DNA of 49,933 nucleotides from Candidatus Gastranaerophilales bacterium. Lineage in GTDB: Bacteria > Cyanobacteriota > Vampirovibrionia > Gastranaerophilales > Gastranaerophilaceae. This document shows, piece after piece, positions 13,065-35,020 of this stretch. The stretch spans positions 1 to 49,933 of the forward strand of contig CALVBB010000016.1 of the NCBI GenBank assembly GCA_944325705.1, given 5' to 3'. The translations under genes and the position numbers were made by a program. How positions within the stretch are numbered: position 1 is the stretch's first letter; each line of letters begins with the position of its first letter. The notes below the pieces were generated by a model. That model worked only from the letters and a program-made list of their open reading frames with translations, had not been told where the DNA came from and did no database searches.

Positions 13065-15425
13065 TTAATTTATATCAACAATACTTACTCCGTCGCCGCC
13101 TTCTCCGTCCTCTCCCGGTCTGAATTTGGCAACGTAAGGCGAAGTTGAGAGAAAATCCCTTACTGCACTTTTTAAAGCACCTGTGCCGTGTCCGTGTATA
13201 ATCGTAACAGGCGAAAGGTTTGCAAGGCTTGCTTTATCGAGATAATTCTCAAGAGCATCAAGCGCATCTTCTACCCTGTACCCTCTCAAATCCAGTCTGT
13301 TTGAAAGATTAATCTTTTTATATTCAAATTTTTCGAAGCTTGAAGGTTTCCAGCCTGACGGTTTCTGTTCAAAGGATTTATCATAGGGGGCAAGTTTATC
13401 TTTTTTCATTTTAGTTTTAAGGTTGCCCATCTGAACAAAAACATTGTTGTTTTTGTCAGGAAGCGAAAGAATTATGACGGGCTGGTGAATTTCTTTCAGG
13501 ATGAGTTTGTCATTAATTTTGACTTCGTCCCAGTTAATTTCTTCGTAGCGGTTTTTGTCCTCATGTTCTGAAATCTTTTCACGGAAGCCATGTTCGAGTT
13601 TTGCAAGTCTTGCGTAAGAGCGCCGCGCGATTTTTTCGGATTTTTCTTTTCTTAATTCCTCCAGAATGTCTTTTATTTCTGCTTTTACAGCCAGAAGTTC
13701 ATAGTCGAATTTGTCTTTGATTTTTTTGATTGTTTTCTTTTTGTCTTTTTTTACTTCGTTGAGGTTTTCTTCGTATTCTTTTTTGATAAGTTCGGAATCT
13801 TCTTTCAGTTCTTTAGCCTCTTTAAGGTTTTCCGAGAGTTTTTGCTGGGTTTCCTGTAATTTTTCAACTGCAAGGATTGACGGGTCTTTTTCAGAGGCAA
13901 GGAGTTCCTTTGCCTTATCAATAATCGATTTGGCCAGACCGAGATTTGCGGAAATCGAGATTGCGTTGCTTAATCCCGGAATACCGGTTAACAACTTGTA
14001 TGTCGGCTTGAGAGATTGTGTGTCAAACTCAACGGAAGCATTTTTGAAATAAGGATTAGTGTATTCAAGGGTTTTTAATTCTCCATAGTGGGTGGTGACT
14101 GTTGAGTAGATCCCTTTTTGTGCAAAATTTTCAAGAATTGATTTTGCAAGCACAGCTCCTTCCTGCGGATCGGTGCCCGCGCAGATTTCATCAAGAAGTA
14201 CAAAAGTGTCGCTGTCACTTTTATTTACAATTTCAATAATATTTGTCATGTGGGATGAAAAAGTGGAAAGGTTCTGGAGAATGTTCTGGGAATCTCCTAT
14301 ATCTGCAAAAACCTGTTTAAACGGATAAACCTTTGCCAGGGTTGCAGGAAGAAACATTCCGGCTTTTGCCATAAGTATAAATAGTCCGATAGTTTTCAGC
14401 GTAACAGTTTTACCGCCGGTGTTGGAGCCAGTGATGATGACTGATTTGTAGTCTTTTCCTATTTCAAAATTATTTGTCACAATATTTTCAACAGTGCCGA
14501 TTAAAAGCGGGTGGCGCATGTTTTCAAATTCTATAAATTTTTCCTGCTGAATTTCCGGTTCAGACGCCTGAATTTTCACGGCGTATCGCGCTTTTGCAAA
14601 GTGAAAATCTATCCGCGCAAGAATTTCTTCACTTCTTTTAATTTCTTTTATCTCAAATTTTACAAGCCCTGTGAGTTCCGCAAGAATTTTTACATACTCG
14701 GCATGAATTTCTGATTGGATTTCGCGGATTCTGTTGTTAATCGGCACTAGGCTTTCCGGTTCAATGTAGAAGGTTTTGTTTGTTGCGGAAACGTCATGAA
14801 CGATGCCTTTAACCTTGTTTTTGCTCGGAGCTTTTACCTGAAAGACAATTCTGTCATCACGGGTTGTGTAAATGGTTTCCTGCAGGTGCTTTGTAAAATC
14901 TGCGGAATTTAAAAGGTCTGCAACTTTATTTTTAAGATTTTTTTCTGTGTCCCTGAGTGCGGTAAAAAGCCGTTTTAATTCAGGTGTGGCATCTTTTTTT
15001 ATCTGCAGTTCGTCGTCAAAAGTGGAAAATATTTTGTCCTCAAGTTCTTTATTGGAAACAAGGCAGTTTGCAAGCCCTTTCATTAATATTTCGCCGTTTT
15101 CATTCAGAAAGCTCTTTACAAGCCTTGAGGAGCGCATTGTTTTTGCAATATCTACGAGTTCCTGTTCGGAAAGATAGCTTGCCGATGCGCTGTTTTGAAT
15201 TTTTGTCACGTCTGCCGCAAACTCAACCGGAATATCCGCGGGCATATCAAGAATTTTTTTTGCCTCTTTTGTAAACTGGATTTCCTGCAGGATTGTTTGG
15301 TATTCGTCGTGAGGCAAAAGCTCAAGGCAGAGTTTCCGGCTCTGCGGTATCTTTGCAAATCCGGCAAGCCTTTCCAGAACTTTATCAAATTCAAGCGATT
15401 TTAAACTTTTTGATACAATATCCAT
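13065..15425 (-). CDS. mutS2: Endonuclease MutS2
   Basis: This 786-residue protein has the MutS2 core: an N-terminal clamp/lever region, the ATPase with Walker A TGSNTGGKTVTLKTIG near residue 330 and LLDEICAGTDPQEG near 405, a charged coiled coil (about 500-620) and a C-terminal Smr nuclease domain with LDLRGYRVEDALDALE and IIHGHGTGAL near 750. In various bacteria MutS2 suppresses recombination and/or rescues collided ribosomes. The ATG at 15425 is preferred over an upstream in-frame TTG at 15464 because the encoded protein then starts like family members. It appears complete. Confidence 0.93.
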   Translation of the reverse strand: MDIVSKSLKSLEFDKVLERLAGFAKIPQSRKLCLELLPHDEYQTILQEIQFTKEAKKILDMPADIPVEFAADVTKIQNSASASYLSEQELVDIAKTMRSSRLVKSFLNENGEILMKGLANCLVSNKELEDKIFSTFDDELQIKKDATPELKRLFTALRDTEKNLKNKVADLLNSADFTKHLQETIYTTRDDRIVFQVKAPSKNKVKGIVHDVSATNKTFYIEPESLVPINNRIREIQSEIHAEYVKILAELTGLVKFEIKEIKRSEEILARIDFHFAKARYAVKIQASEPEIQQEKFIEFENMRHPLLIGTVENIVTNNFEIGKDYKSVIITGSNTGGKTVTLKTIGLFILMAKAGMFLPATLAKVYPFKQVFADIGDSQNILQNLSTFSSHMTNIIEIVNKSDSDTFVLLDEICAGTDPQEGAVLAKSILENFAQKGIYSTVTTHYGELKTLEYTNPYFKNASVEFDTQSLKPTYKLLTGIPGLSNAISISANLGLAKSIIDKAKELLASEKDPSILAVEKLQETQQKLSENLKEAKELKEDSELIKKEYEENLNEVKKDKKKTIKKIKDKFDYELLAVKAEIKDILEELRKEKSEKIARRSYARLAKLEHGFREKISEHEDKNRYEEINWDEVKINDKLILKEIHQPVIILSLPDKNNNVFVQMGNLKTKMKKDKLAPYDKSFEQKPSGWKPSSFEKFEYKKINLSNRLDLRGYRVEDALDALENYLDKASLANLSPVTIIHGHGTGALKSAVRDFLSTSPYVAKFRPGEDGEGGDGVSIVDIN

Positions 15426-15575
15426 ATTAATAATTTTACTATAAACATTAAACGATGTGCGCAATGAAGTCTTAAATTTAATTCTAACGGAAAGAACATC
15501 CGTTTGTAATCAACTCAACCAGAAGCAAGTGAACGCGCTGCGCTTTGAACAAAATATAAAAGATTTTGAAAAATC

Positions 15576-21341: not shown

Positions 21342-21344
21342 TAA

Positions 21345-21374
21345 AAAGCCCTCAATGTTGAGGGCTTTTTTTAT
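21345..21374 (+). terminator. Rho-independent terminator
   Basis: AAAGCCCTCAA and TTGAGGGCTTT form an 11-base perfect stem with a 2-base loop, followed by a T run. It ends the transcript of the 77-residue protein. Confidence 0.92.
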
Positions 21375-21394: not shown

Positions 21395-21490
21395 AAAAAG
21401 TACAGAGATGCGGCCGGATAGCCGGAAGAATTAACATGTCAGTGTGTCAGCCAAAATACGCATGATGAAATCACATAAGGAGATGAAACT

Positions 21491-22376
21491 ATGGGAAACG
21501 CAGTAATATCAAGAAAAATCGGGGGGGGGGCAAGGTAGTTTAAGCTCCTTAACCGGCAATTGGTGGGGATTACAGGCGGGTGATAAGGTAAAAAGCTTTA
21601 TTGCATCGACCGATTTGCGGTACAAAAAATTCGGGTTTGCACTTTCAGAGGTTTTTAAAACATTTCAGACCGGCAATTTTGAACCTGCGTTTACTCTGGC
21701 CGAGGTCCTTATAACACTAGGAATCATCGGTGTAGTTGCCGCAATGACGCTTCCTTCAATTCTCCAGAAACAAGAAAGGCTTTCAACAGTTGTTGCATTG
21801 AAGAAATTCTATAGTTCTTTTCAAAATGCTATAAATTTCTCACAGCTTGAGCATGGGCCGGCTGTTAACTGGGATACAAAGACAAATTACAATGATACCG
21901 ATGCAATGTATGCCTGGTTTGACGAATATGTTATTCAGTATATGAAGATACTGGCGAATTGTAATAAAGATAATAACAAGGCTTGTTTTCATACCTACAG
22001 CTATACAACATTTCCGGGTGAATCAAACCTTCCCTCAAGTACAATGGCTAAGACCCGTACAATGTATATTTTTCAGGATGGAAGTGCTATTACTGCAATT
22101 ACCGGTGGCGGTACCGAAAGTATGTCCCGTGTTTTTCATATATTATTCGATACTAACGGGTATCGTAAACCAAATGCCTATGGACAAGATATTTTTTCTT
22201 TCCGATATAAAAATGGAGAAATATACTGTGATGATCATAAAAGTATAACGGGAGGGTCGGTAGCTTCGTCAGATTCAAGGGAAACGTTACTTGATGCCTG
22301 TAAGAATAATCCTCAGACATGTACCTGTTTAATTATGCATGACGGCTGGCAAATTAAAGACGATTACCCGTGGTAA
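21491..22376 (+). CDS. Prepilin-like protein with G-tract leader; frame interrupted as sequenced
   Basis: An excellent ribosome binding site (AAGGAG) precedes the ATG at 21491. After ten codons a run of ten G (21521-21530) puts translation out of frame, and it stops at TAG 21536-21538. With nine G the frame is continuous to 22376 (294 codons). The encoded protein has a leader of about 66 residues and then the class III/type IV prepilin signature AFTLAEVLITLGIIG with Glu at +5. A long hydrophobic helix and a Cys-containing globular domain follow, ending in GWQIKDDYPW. A shorter product could start from TTG at 21615. The family is cleaved and polymerised at the inner membrane by type IV pilus or type II secretion machinery. 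The next gene starts 53 bases on. The frame break is either phase-OFF or a homopolymer error. Confidence 0.8.
21521..21530 (+). repeat. Homopolymeric G10 tract in coding start region
   Basis: Ten consecutive G lie 30 bases after the ATG at 21491. Nine (or 6, 12) G gives a continuous prepilin frame. Ten gives a 15-residue peptide, and eleven stops at TAA after about 17 codons. The surrounding DNA is AT-rich, so the run is not compositional chance. Confidence 0.85.
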
Positions 22377-33593: not shown

Positions 33594-34472
33594 TTACTTC
33601 TCGCCTTCCGTGTAGTTTTCATATTGAAGCTTACCGTTTCCGGTTAGAATATTTTTAAAGCTTGTGCCGCCGTAAGCAGACCATGTGCCGGGTTTTACTT
33701 TGTTTGTTGTAACTTGTATTTCATATATGTCTGCCCCGAATTGGTTCGGCCGCTTTAGACCGTTAACATCCATAAATATAGTGGCACAATCTGAATGTAT
33801 TTCGGTTACTGAAATAGTGTCCCCGTTTTCATCTTTTATGCAGTTTCCTGAAGAATCTTGCTTGCATCCTGTATTTGTGCGGCTGCAAGATGTTTTTTGT
33901 TGTATTGTAAGAACAGAACCGTCATTTAATATAATCTTGGCACCATCCGGAGTGTAAGTTTTATTGCTATCACCGGAACCTTTATATGCGGTGGCATATT
34001 TAACTTTATAATAATACTGGCTGCAGCCTTTTTGACTTTTATTTTCACAAACTTTAGCTCCATTAAAGTATTTAGCGAAATTTTTTGCGGTTTCAGCGTG
34101 AGTGTTAGTGACATCAAAGAGGAACGTGTTATCCCCCACTGCGCCTAAATCTTTCTGGGCAAGCAGTGCCGCATTTTGAATATTTGAAAAAGTTTTTTTC
34201 ACCTGCGTGGCAAGCTCTTTTTCTTTGTAATTGTTGACAAGCGCAGGCAGTGTCATAGCGGCGACTACCCCGATAATCCCGAGGGTAATTAAGACCTCAG
34301 CAAGAGTGAAAGCGGATTTTCGGAAGGGCGCCGAGTGAGCGAAAGCGAACCCGGCCCGTAAGGTGTCTGAAAACCGGGCTTTTCCGACATCCCGAATAAT
34401 CCGGATGTCGGCTTTTCTGCGGGTGAAGCGTGAAGGGTGAGGAGTGAAGGGTTCAACAAAACCCTCCGGCAC
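33594..34472 (-). CDS. Prepilin-like protein with repeat-encoded leader
   Basis: The mature part begins KSAFTLAEVLITLGIIG (Phe +1, Glu +5, Ala -1) and continues through a hydrophobic helix into a Cys-containing globular domain (KVCENKSQKGCSQYYYK; SCSRTNTGCKQ). It ends GNGKLQYENYTEGEK. The in-frame region upstream, back to GTG at 34472, is 54 residues of repeat-derived sequence (PFTPHPSRFTRRKADIR...). An AAGGGAGG inside the repeat lies about ten bases before that GTG. The native start was probably lost or replaced when the repeat inserted, so the exact start is uncertain and the gene may be disrupted. Upstream on the same strand lies a second G-tract start region. Confidence 0.75.
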   Translation of the reverse strand: MPEGFVEPFTPHPSRFTRRKADIRIIRDVGKARFSDTLRAGFAFAHSAPFRKSAFTLAEVLITLGIIGVVAAMTLPALVNNYKEKELATQVKKTFSNIQNAALLAQKDLGAVGDNTFLFDVTNTHAETAKNFAKYFNGAKVCENKSQKGCSQYYYKVKYATAYKGSGDSNKTYTPDGAKIILNDGSVLTIQQKTSCSRTNTGCKQDSSGNCIKDENGDTISVTEIHSDCATIFMDVNGLKRPNQFGADIYEIQVTTNKVKPGTWSAYGGTSFKNILTGNGKLQYENYTEGEK

Positions 34473-34922
34473 AATCGTGCCGCCTCCCTTACAAGGGAGG
34501 TCGTTACCATTACCCCCTTTGTGATAAAGGGGTGCAGAGGAGATTTTTTAATAAAAACCATCTGGCGCTGCACACCACCTGCCTTTGAATTACCCCTCCT
34601 CGGAATCGCAGATTTTGATCCTCCCTCAAGGGGCGGACAAGAAAACCAGCAGGTCGGAATTACACATTCGAGTGGCAGAACTGTTGAAATGTTGAACAGT
34701 TTATCATTAGATATATCATTCTGAAACGTAAATTGTTGCGGCTCACAATAGTTGCAACTGTTCAGAAGCTCTTTGTTATTTGCGCCCGCAATGGAAAAAG
34801 ATTTAAAAAAATCTCCGCGCTTAATATTTTCTAAAAAAATGTGCCAGAACCCCTTGTCCTGAGCGGAAGTAAATCTACCCCCCCCCCCCTGAGAGTTTTG
34901 AAGCTATAGTTGTGTTTTGCAT
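34289..34922 (-). CDS. G-tract start region and frame-interrupted ORF upstream of the prepilin
   Basis: On the minus strand AAAGGAGGA precedes an ATG (34922-34920), ten further codons and twelve G. As sequenced the next codon is TAG, giving a 15-residue peptide. With eleven G the frame is open for 210 codons to a TAA at 34289-34291. The first 85 or so codons are unique sequence (GRFTSAQDKGFWHIF near the start). The rest passes through the interspersed repeat and overlaps the prepilin in another frame. This resembles the start of the 21491 prepilin, so it is probably the original leader of the pilin gene, now separated from it by the repeat. It could also be an independent small gene. Confidence 0.45.
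34320..34660. repeat. Cluster of interspersed intergenic repeat modules
   Basis: The segment holds, in order on the plus strand: a C/G-rich block with a hairpin CCGACATCC/GGATGTCGG (34384-34409); the (GTGAAGS)-type 7-mer module (34423-34457) also found at 17985; a CCTCCGGCACAATCGTGCCG-type block; a CTCCCTTACAAGGGAG hairpin; a CCCCCTTTGTGATAAAGGGG hairpin; and a block around 34590-34640 with CCTCCTCGG and CTCCCTCAAGGGGCGG. Its composition is much richer in G+C than its surroundings, and there is no transposase. It looks like a mosaic of non-autonomous repeats. Confidence 0.6.
34878..34889 (-). repeat. Homopolymeric tract, twelve C (G on the coding strand)
   Basis: Twelve consecutive C on the plus strand lie 30 bases downstream of the minus-strand ATG at 34922. 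It has the same distance from its ATG, within one codon, as the G10 tract at 21521. Confidence 0.85.
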
Positions 34923-35020
34923 AAATGTATCCTCCTTTTTACTTATTATATCATACCTTTTACACAAAGACAACCTGACCTTTTGCAAGAAACAGGTTGC
35001 GCTCTGCGTAAAAATATTTT

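Follow-up and report, generated by a model that had tools for sequence, protein, structure and literature searches.

The window, a stretch of 49,933 nucleotides of contig CALVBB010000016.1 from a Candidatus Gastranaerophilales bacterium, carries a type IV prepilin gene whose leader is interrupted by ten consecutive G (Table 1). The initial annotation had placed this tract ten codons into a frame opened by a ribosome site (AAGGAG) and an ATG, with a stop six codons after the start of the tract and a 294-codon prepilin frame recovered by deletion of one G. All of this was confirmed, and every number proved exact. Past the tract, the three reading frames are open for 281, 3 and 1 codons, the longest of them stopping at 22374-22376; with one G removed, the leader start is joined to the prepilin in a frame of 885 nt (294 codons and a stop) that contains no other stop. 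Judged from these frames, gain or loss of single units in the tract would toggle between a full-length and a truncated product.

The tract is followed directly by CAAGGTAG. The remainder of the leader consists of a cassette-derived part (SSLSSLTG..) and a native part (KKFGFALSEVFKTF..NFEPA). The downstream product matched the N_methyl model (PF07963, type IV prepilin) with 22.0 bits in the genome search, the cut-off being 21.2, and with only 18.8 bits, below the cut-off, in the scan of open reading frames; the N-terminal hydrophobic methylation motif FTxxE is present. Between the tract and FTLAE we found no ribosome site and start that the prepilin could use on its own, and no terminator was found between the tract and the prepilin. 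An internal start at TTG 21615 was considered and rejected because it lacks a ribosome site, although it aligns near the native start of a congener.

Table 1. Features of the two tract leaders and their prepilin genes in the window.
Feature	Position	Strand	Remarks
Terminator-like hairpin closing the preceding small gene	21343..21370	+	
Leader ribosome-binding site AAGGAG	21477..21482	+	Read in the sequence, conserved across copies; eight bases before the ATG
Leader start, ATG 21491-21493 and nine codons (MGNAVISRKI)	21491..21520	+	Family A cassette, M-[EG]-[NK]-x-x-I-x-R..
G10 tract, proposed switch	21521..21530	+	OFF as sequenced, ON at 9, 12, ...
TAG terminating the sequenced (OFF) frame	21536..21538	+	Sixth codon from the tract start
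Remaining prepilin leader, ON frame, 53 codons	21531..21689	+	Cleavage between A and F predicted from the N_methyl motif
Mature pilin frame FTLAEVLITLGIIGVVAAM..., 228 codons and stop	21690..22376	+	PF07963 N_methyl
Second-leader ribosome site AGGAGG (34936-34931) and ATG (34922-34920)	34920..34936	-	Family B (MQNTTIASKLS)
Second-leader G12 tract (C12 on the forward strand)	34878..34889	-	OFF, TAG immediately after
Prepilin downstream of the second leader	33594..34472	-	N_methyl 24.1 bits

The only other run of more than six G or C in the window, which has a G+C content of 39%, is the C12 of the second leader. This leader shares the setting of the focal one, with an SD, an ATG, 11 codons and G12 upstream of a prepilin gene. 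We classed this copy as broken because its open leader frame differs from the prepilin frame; it would need more than a change of the tract and has probably decayed or been rearranged. Stop-free palindromic repeats (KADIRIIRDVGKA.., PSPEFVNSLSLINKFCP..) occur in long leaders of fused prepilins (window 34300-34420 on the minus strand, and loci L132, L046 and L063), resembling mobile palindromes that were inserted into coding leaders.

The same arrangement recurs throughout the genome to which the window belongs (G000; 1.95 Mb, 44 contigs). It has 67 runs of at least nine G, where independent bases would yield about 1.4. The SD-ATG-tract pattern matches 75 times, overlapping placements included, and its reversal has 0 matches. 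Forty-six of the runs, when examined, were found to sit after a ribosome site and an ATG, and 40 of these 46 precede a prepilin gene. Leader and prepilin are fused at 31 of the 46 loci and separate at 4, whereas 5 loci are broken and 6 are without a recognised pilin. Two repeated leaders, AAAGGAGATTAAACAATGGAAAAG..AGCAAGGATTT-C-Gn-CAAGTAGTTTAAGCTCCTTAACCGG and GAGGATAAATTTATGCAAAACACAACTATAGCTTCAAAACTCAGA-Gn, account for most of the 46 loci, and homology between copies starts at the ribosome site and stops roughly 60-120 bases past the tract. The genome yields 131 N_methyl matches; the tract genes thus make up part of a very large set of prepilins. Given that this design stands before dozens of pilus genes, we interpret the focal locus as one of many such switches distributed over the genome, most of them OFF. 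The initial annotation had proposed a candidate contingency locus: the frame switch is supported, but the locus is not a single one, being one of dozens per genome. For eight of the 67 runs, a contig end is no more than 250 bases away (C1, C5, C6, C13, C19, C21, C25 and C33; 0.8 expected). Assemblies thus break at tract leaders, and tract genes are therefore undercounted in draft genomes.

In searches with the pattern SD-N5..14-ATG-N20..40-G9, 147 of 383 family genomes gave matches, which fall into 26 of the 41 genera, with counts near zero for the reversed pattern, and placements of the SD-ATG-tract pattern reach well over 100 in some genomes. While the leader sequence varies between genera, the G-run is kept; at the prepilin loci examined, the spacing from ATG to tract is 24-37 bases and the tract is 9-15 long, with a mode of 11. 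A leader scan of a contig collection returned 12 copies, all of them from one uncultured assembly. There are few G-runs in other families of the order.

Two ways of reading out the tract can be distinguished. At fused loci, which include the focal one, the ON frame continues from the leader ATG into the prepilin. In G003, G012 and part of G007, the leader forms a short ORF by itself, and about 145 bases past the tract the prepilin starts from its own ribosome site and ATG. Among 53 separate-ORF loci of relatives and paralogs, 32 have a hairpin followed by a U-run between leader and prepilin, compared with about 1 in shuffled sequences. The hairpin reads GCCGTG..CACGGTGATTTTT, or CAGCCA..TGGCTGATTTTTT in G007 and AAGCAGTCAATA..TTGGCTGCTT in G000. 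The ON-frame stop is no more than 12 bases before the hairpin or lies beyond it at 30 of the 32 loci, whereas only 3 of 64 OFF stops do so. In the separate class, translation of the leader in the ON frame would reach the terminator ahead of the prepilin and may thereby prevent termination, a form of antitermination.

The history of the focal copy can be read from its congeners. Orthologous pilin genes in G001 and G010 share 88% nucleotide identity with it from just before FTLAE onward and have their own ribosome site and a short ATGAAAATAAAAGG.. leader without a tract. In the genome of the window, the stretch just upstream of FTLAE still resembles this native leader but has lost its ATG, and it is preceded by the cassette. 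The tract-free native leader of the congener thus indicates that the focal gene had its original start replaced by the tract cassette. Comparison of the mature part with the G010 ortholog over 232 codons gave dS 0.47 and dN 0.06, with a dN/dS of 0.13. Judged from these codon substitutions, the pilin body of the OFF gene is under purifying selection as a protein, and its ON product is predicted to be functional. The tract-free ortholog in G001 (L144, on contig C31) ends after 84 codons of the mature part; the G010 copy is intact.

Most tract prepilins are OFF as sequenced. Across eight species, 17 of 171 are ON, whereas one third would be expected under random phase (3/35 in G000, 3/26 in G033, 4/40 in G003, 0/25 in G011, 2/11 in G010 and 4/25 in G007). 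Tract genes other than pilins, among them genes that look like glycosyltransferases and large repeat proteins, are often in frame: 12 of 22 are ON (Fisher 4e-6 against the prepilins, a value that, like the one given below, overstates the strength of evidence because copies are related). This set comes from the same species and one further genome, and four prepilins missed by the motif were moved out of it by hand. Since these genes are often ON, the excess of OFF states belongs to pilins rather than to a sequencing bias.

The OFF state is also skewed towards one phase. The prevailing phase per leader group is +1 in the genome of the window, G007, G010 and G011, and -1 in G033 and in the upstream ORFs of G003 and G012. 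Programmed slippage in a single fixed direction was therefore rejected as a general rule. Within a leader group, tract length tracks flanking length so that phase is preserved (30+10+8, 29+11+8 and 30+11+7 nt); in the TTTAAGC group, the flank sum is 1 mod 3 with G11 (18 loci) and 2 mod 3 with G10 (11 loci; Fisher 2e-5, overstated for the same reason). The preserved phase may result in part from substitutions at the tract edge or from descent, but a compensated indel has to be assumed for the CAAGGTAG and CAAGTAG flanks. Such a skew is not expected from free slippage alone, as the two OFF phases should then mix. It suggests that slippage is slow, that copies arose recently or that one particular OFF phase is selected for; RNA-level slippage would fit it as well. 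Near-identical copies differ in tract length (G12 and G10 at L288, with 1 mismatch in 110 flanking bases), the copies compared being paralogs. Support for a frame switch in the prepilin leader thus comes from its presence at about 170 prepilin genes in eight species, from intact ON frames, from purifying selection on the body of the OFF gene and from the length differences between near-identical copies.

MutS was present in every genome of the family (f1) searched and MutL in the genome of the window. Slippage may be slow because both are present, and for the same reason loss of mismatch repair was rejected as the cause of the G-runs. The window itself has a MutS2-like gene (13065-15464, minus strand), with MutS1 and MutL encoded elsewhere in the genome; the G-runs thus persist despite mismatch repair genes.

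Slipped-strand phase variation in a disposable prepilin leader, with OFF as the default state, is the explanation that we regard as likely. A leader cassette made of a ribosome site, an ATG, about ten codons, the poly-G and about 25 further codons would have taken over the start of a prepilin-like gene, and replication would then gain or lose one G, bringing the start into or out of frame. With G10, the ribosome would stop at 21536 and no pilin would be made; with G9 or G12, a prepilin of 294 residues would result. Prepilin peptidase is expected to remove the whole 66-residue leader, tract included, between A and F, and since the tract would leave with the leader, the mature pilin would be identical at 9, 12 or 15 G. 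With dozens of switches nearly all OFF at once, a cell would display few of its pilins. We infer replication slippage within populations, cleavage of the leader, antitermination and a benefit from displaying few pilins. A broader proposal, on which we find the balance about even, is that a poly-G leader cassette able to spread has placed dozens of type IV prepilin genes in a genome under frame switches that act independently and are OFF by default. Read out by fusion or through a terminator, these switches would provide a repertoire resembling that of antigenic variation without gene conversion or inversion.

An alternative that we consider improbable, yet worth weighing, is programmed slippage at the RNA level, in which the tract is fixed off by one and the RNA polymerase (or the ribosome) slips, giving low constant pilin in every cell. 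It would account for the single OFF phase that each leader group keeps despite differing tract length, and for the nearly invariable G11 in G003 and G011. Against it, the direction of slippage required is opposite between species and some copies are exactly in frame, as are many of the non-pilin tract genes, and tract length differs between near-identical copies. The title of Wagner 1990, cited in PMC3711429, places transcriptional slippage in E. coli at runs of A or T. The same anatomy operates by replication slippage in Bifidobacterium breve UCC2003, where the sortase-pilus genes bbr_0113 and bbr_1889 contain G10/G11 tracts that, in the reference, have one G too many and keep the genes OFF (Penno et al. 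2022, PMC9187656). Cells with G10, G11 and G12 coexist there, and ON cells, which arise by loss of one G, are enriched in mice; the mixed lengths and this enrichment favour replication slippage.

It is very unlikely that the tract leader is mainly a fixed regulatory peptide (an attenuator or a stalling peptide) to which length change is incidental. The separate ORF before a terminator-like hairpin in G003, G012 and G007 is what such a peptide would look like, but the focal locus has no terminator between tract and prepilin, its prepilin has no start with a ribosome site of its own, most copies in the genome of the window are fused in frame, and the G-run is kept across genera while the leader sequence changes. 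Decay or assembly error, with the extra G a mutation or a consensus error that has no role in switching, is least credible of all: the source does resemble a metagenome assembly in 44 contigs, with G-runs near contig ends as noted above and five broken tract loci, but the same arrangement with intact ON frames at 171 prepilin loci in eight species, the low dN/dS of the focal pilin and the strong skew in phase, to which an error would be blind, all speak against it.

Phase variation through a repeat in a leader has several known counterparts. As in our system, the tracts of B. breve, a gut commensal, lie near the start of the pilin gene, the upstream ORF having a ribosome site and the downstream frame none. 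B. breve differs in having two LPXTG pilus loci with a Sec signal, compared with dozens of type IV prepilins here, and in lacking a repeated leader cassette; polarity has been reported there, but not a separate leader ORF with an intrinsic terminator. In Streptococcus gallolyticus pil1, a longer leader peptide prevents premature termination, as demonstrated by mutation (Danne et al. 2014, PMC3894217). At pil1 and pil3, the number of repeats in the leader ORF places its stop before or inside the hairpin, and expression is low in most cells (PMC3894217). This attenuator resembles the separate-ORF class of G003, G012, G007 and three loci of the genome of the window. It differs in its GCAGA repeats, its two loci and its sortase pili, whereas the focal locus is fused and has no such terminator. 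The opa genes of Neisseria, present in about 11 copies, are similar in that every copy has its own CTCTT repeat within a leader that is removed, so that several combinations are possible (PMC3745409, PMC5354566); they differ in their pentamer repeats, fewer copies and Sec signal peptide, and they encode outer-membrane proteins. Like the focal gene, pilC of Neisseria gonorrhoeae belongs to type IV pili and has a poly-G frame switch in a leader that is removed, in this case in the signal-peptide region (PMC5354566), but PilC is a tip adhesin or assembly protein present in two copies, and pilE varies mainly through antigenic variation. Both the phase variation of pilus genes by poly-G tracts and phase-variable attenuation are thus already known. 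The part of the open-access literature that we searched contained no paper on Gastranaerophilales together with phase variation or homopolymeric tracts, and none describing either mechanism for type IV prepilins of this family, at dozens of copies per genome and with a repeated leader cassette in the discarded part. The statement in the initial annotation that such switching had not been described for this pilin group therefore holds within that literature, with the G-tracts of B. breve and the attenuator of S. gallolyticus as close analogues.

Most known cases of homopolymer phase variation come from pathogens, with a few from commensals, and they usually concern scattered loci. In the present case, a whole family of uncultured relatives seems to switch a large part of its extensive prepilin repertoire by means of a part of the protein that is discarded. 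Default-OFF surface variation of pilins in uncultured gut-type bacteria becomes testable from existing metagenomes, and the separate-ORF loci offer many natural replicates of phase-variable attenuation, which in the literature searched was represented by two loci of one streptococcus. The results also serve as a warning that tract genes are misannotated as truncated or missing.

G-runs also occur in settings other than prepilin leaders. G025 has about 90, nearly all of them G10 and many located before a repeated NRSYQRFWRFFDFLLSPE segment without a clear ATG. This is a different use of G-runs, and the G025 tracts (before the repeated NRSYQRFWRFF segment, mostly without a clear ATG) were left out of the prepilin phase counts. 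Three genomes from other families of the same class (G088, G093 and G098) have 22 to 30 G-runs each. Non-pilin genes with a G-run inside or at their start were recorded in the genome of the window (L042, L043, L044, L050, L072, L078, L082 and L090) and in its relatives (L190, L197, L198, L211, L245 and L260). These are further contingency genes, of the ordinary kind.
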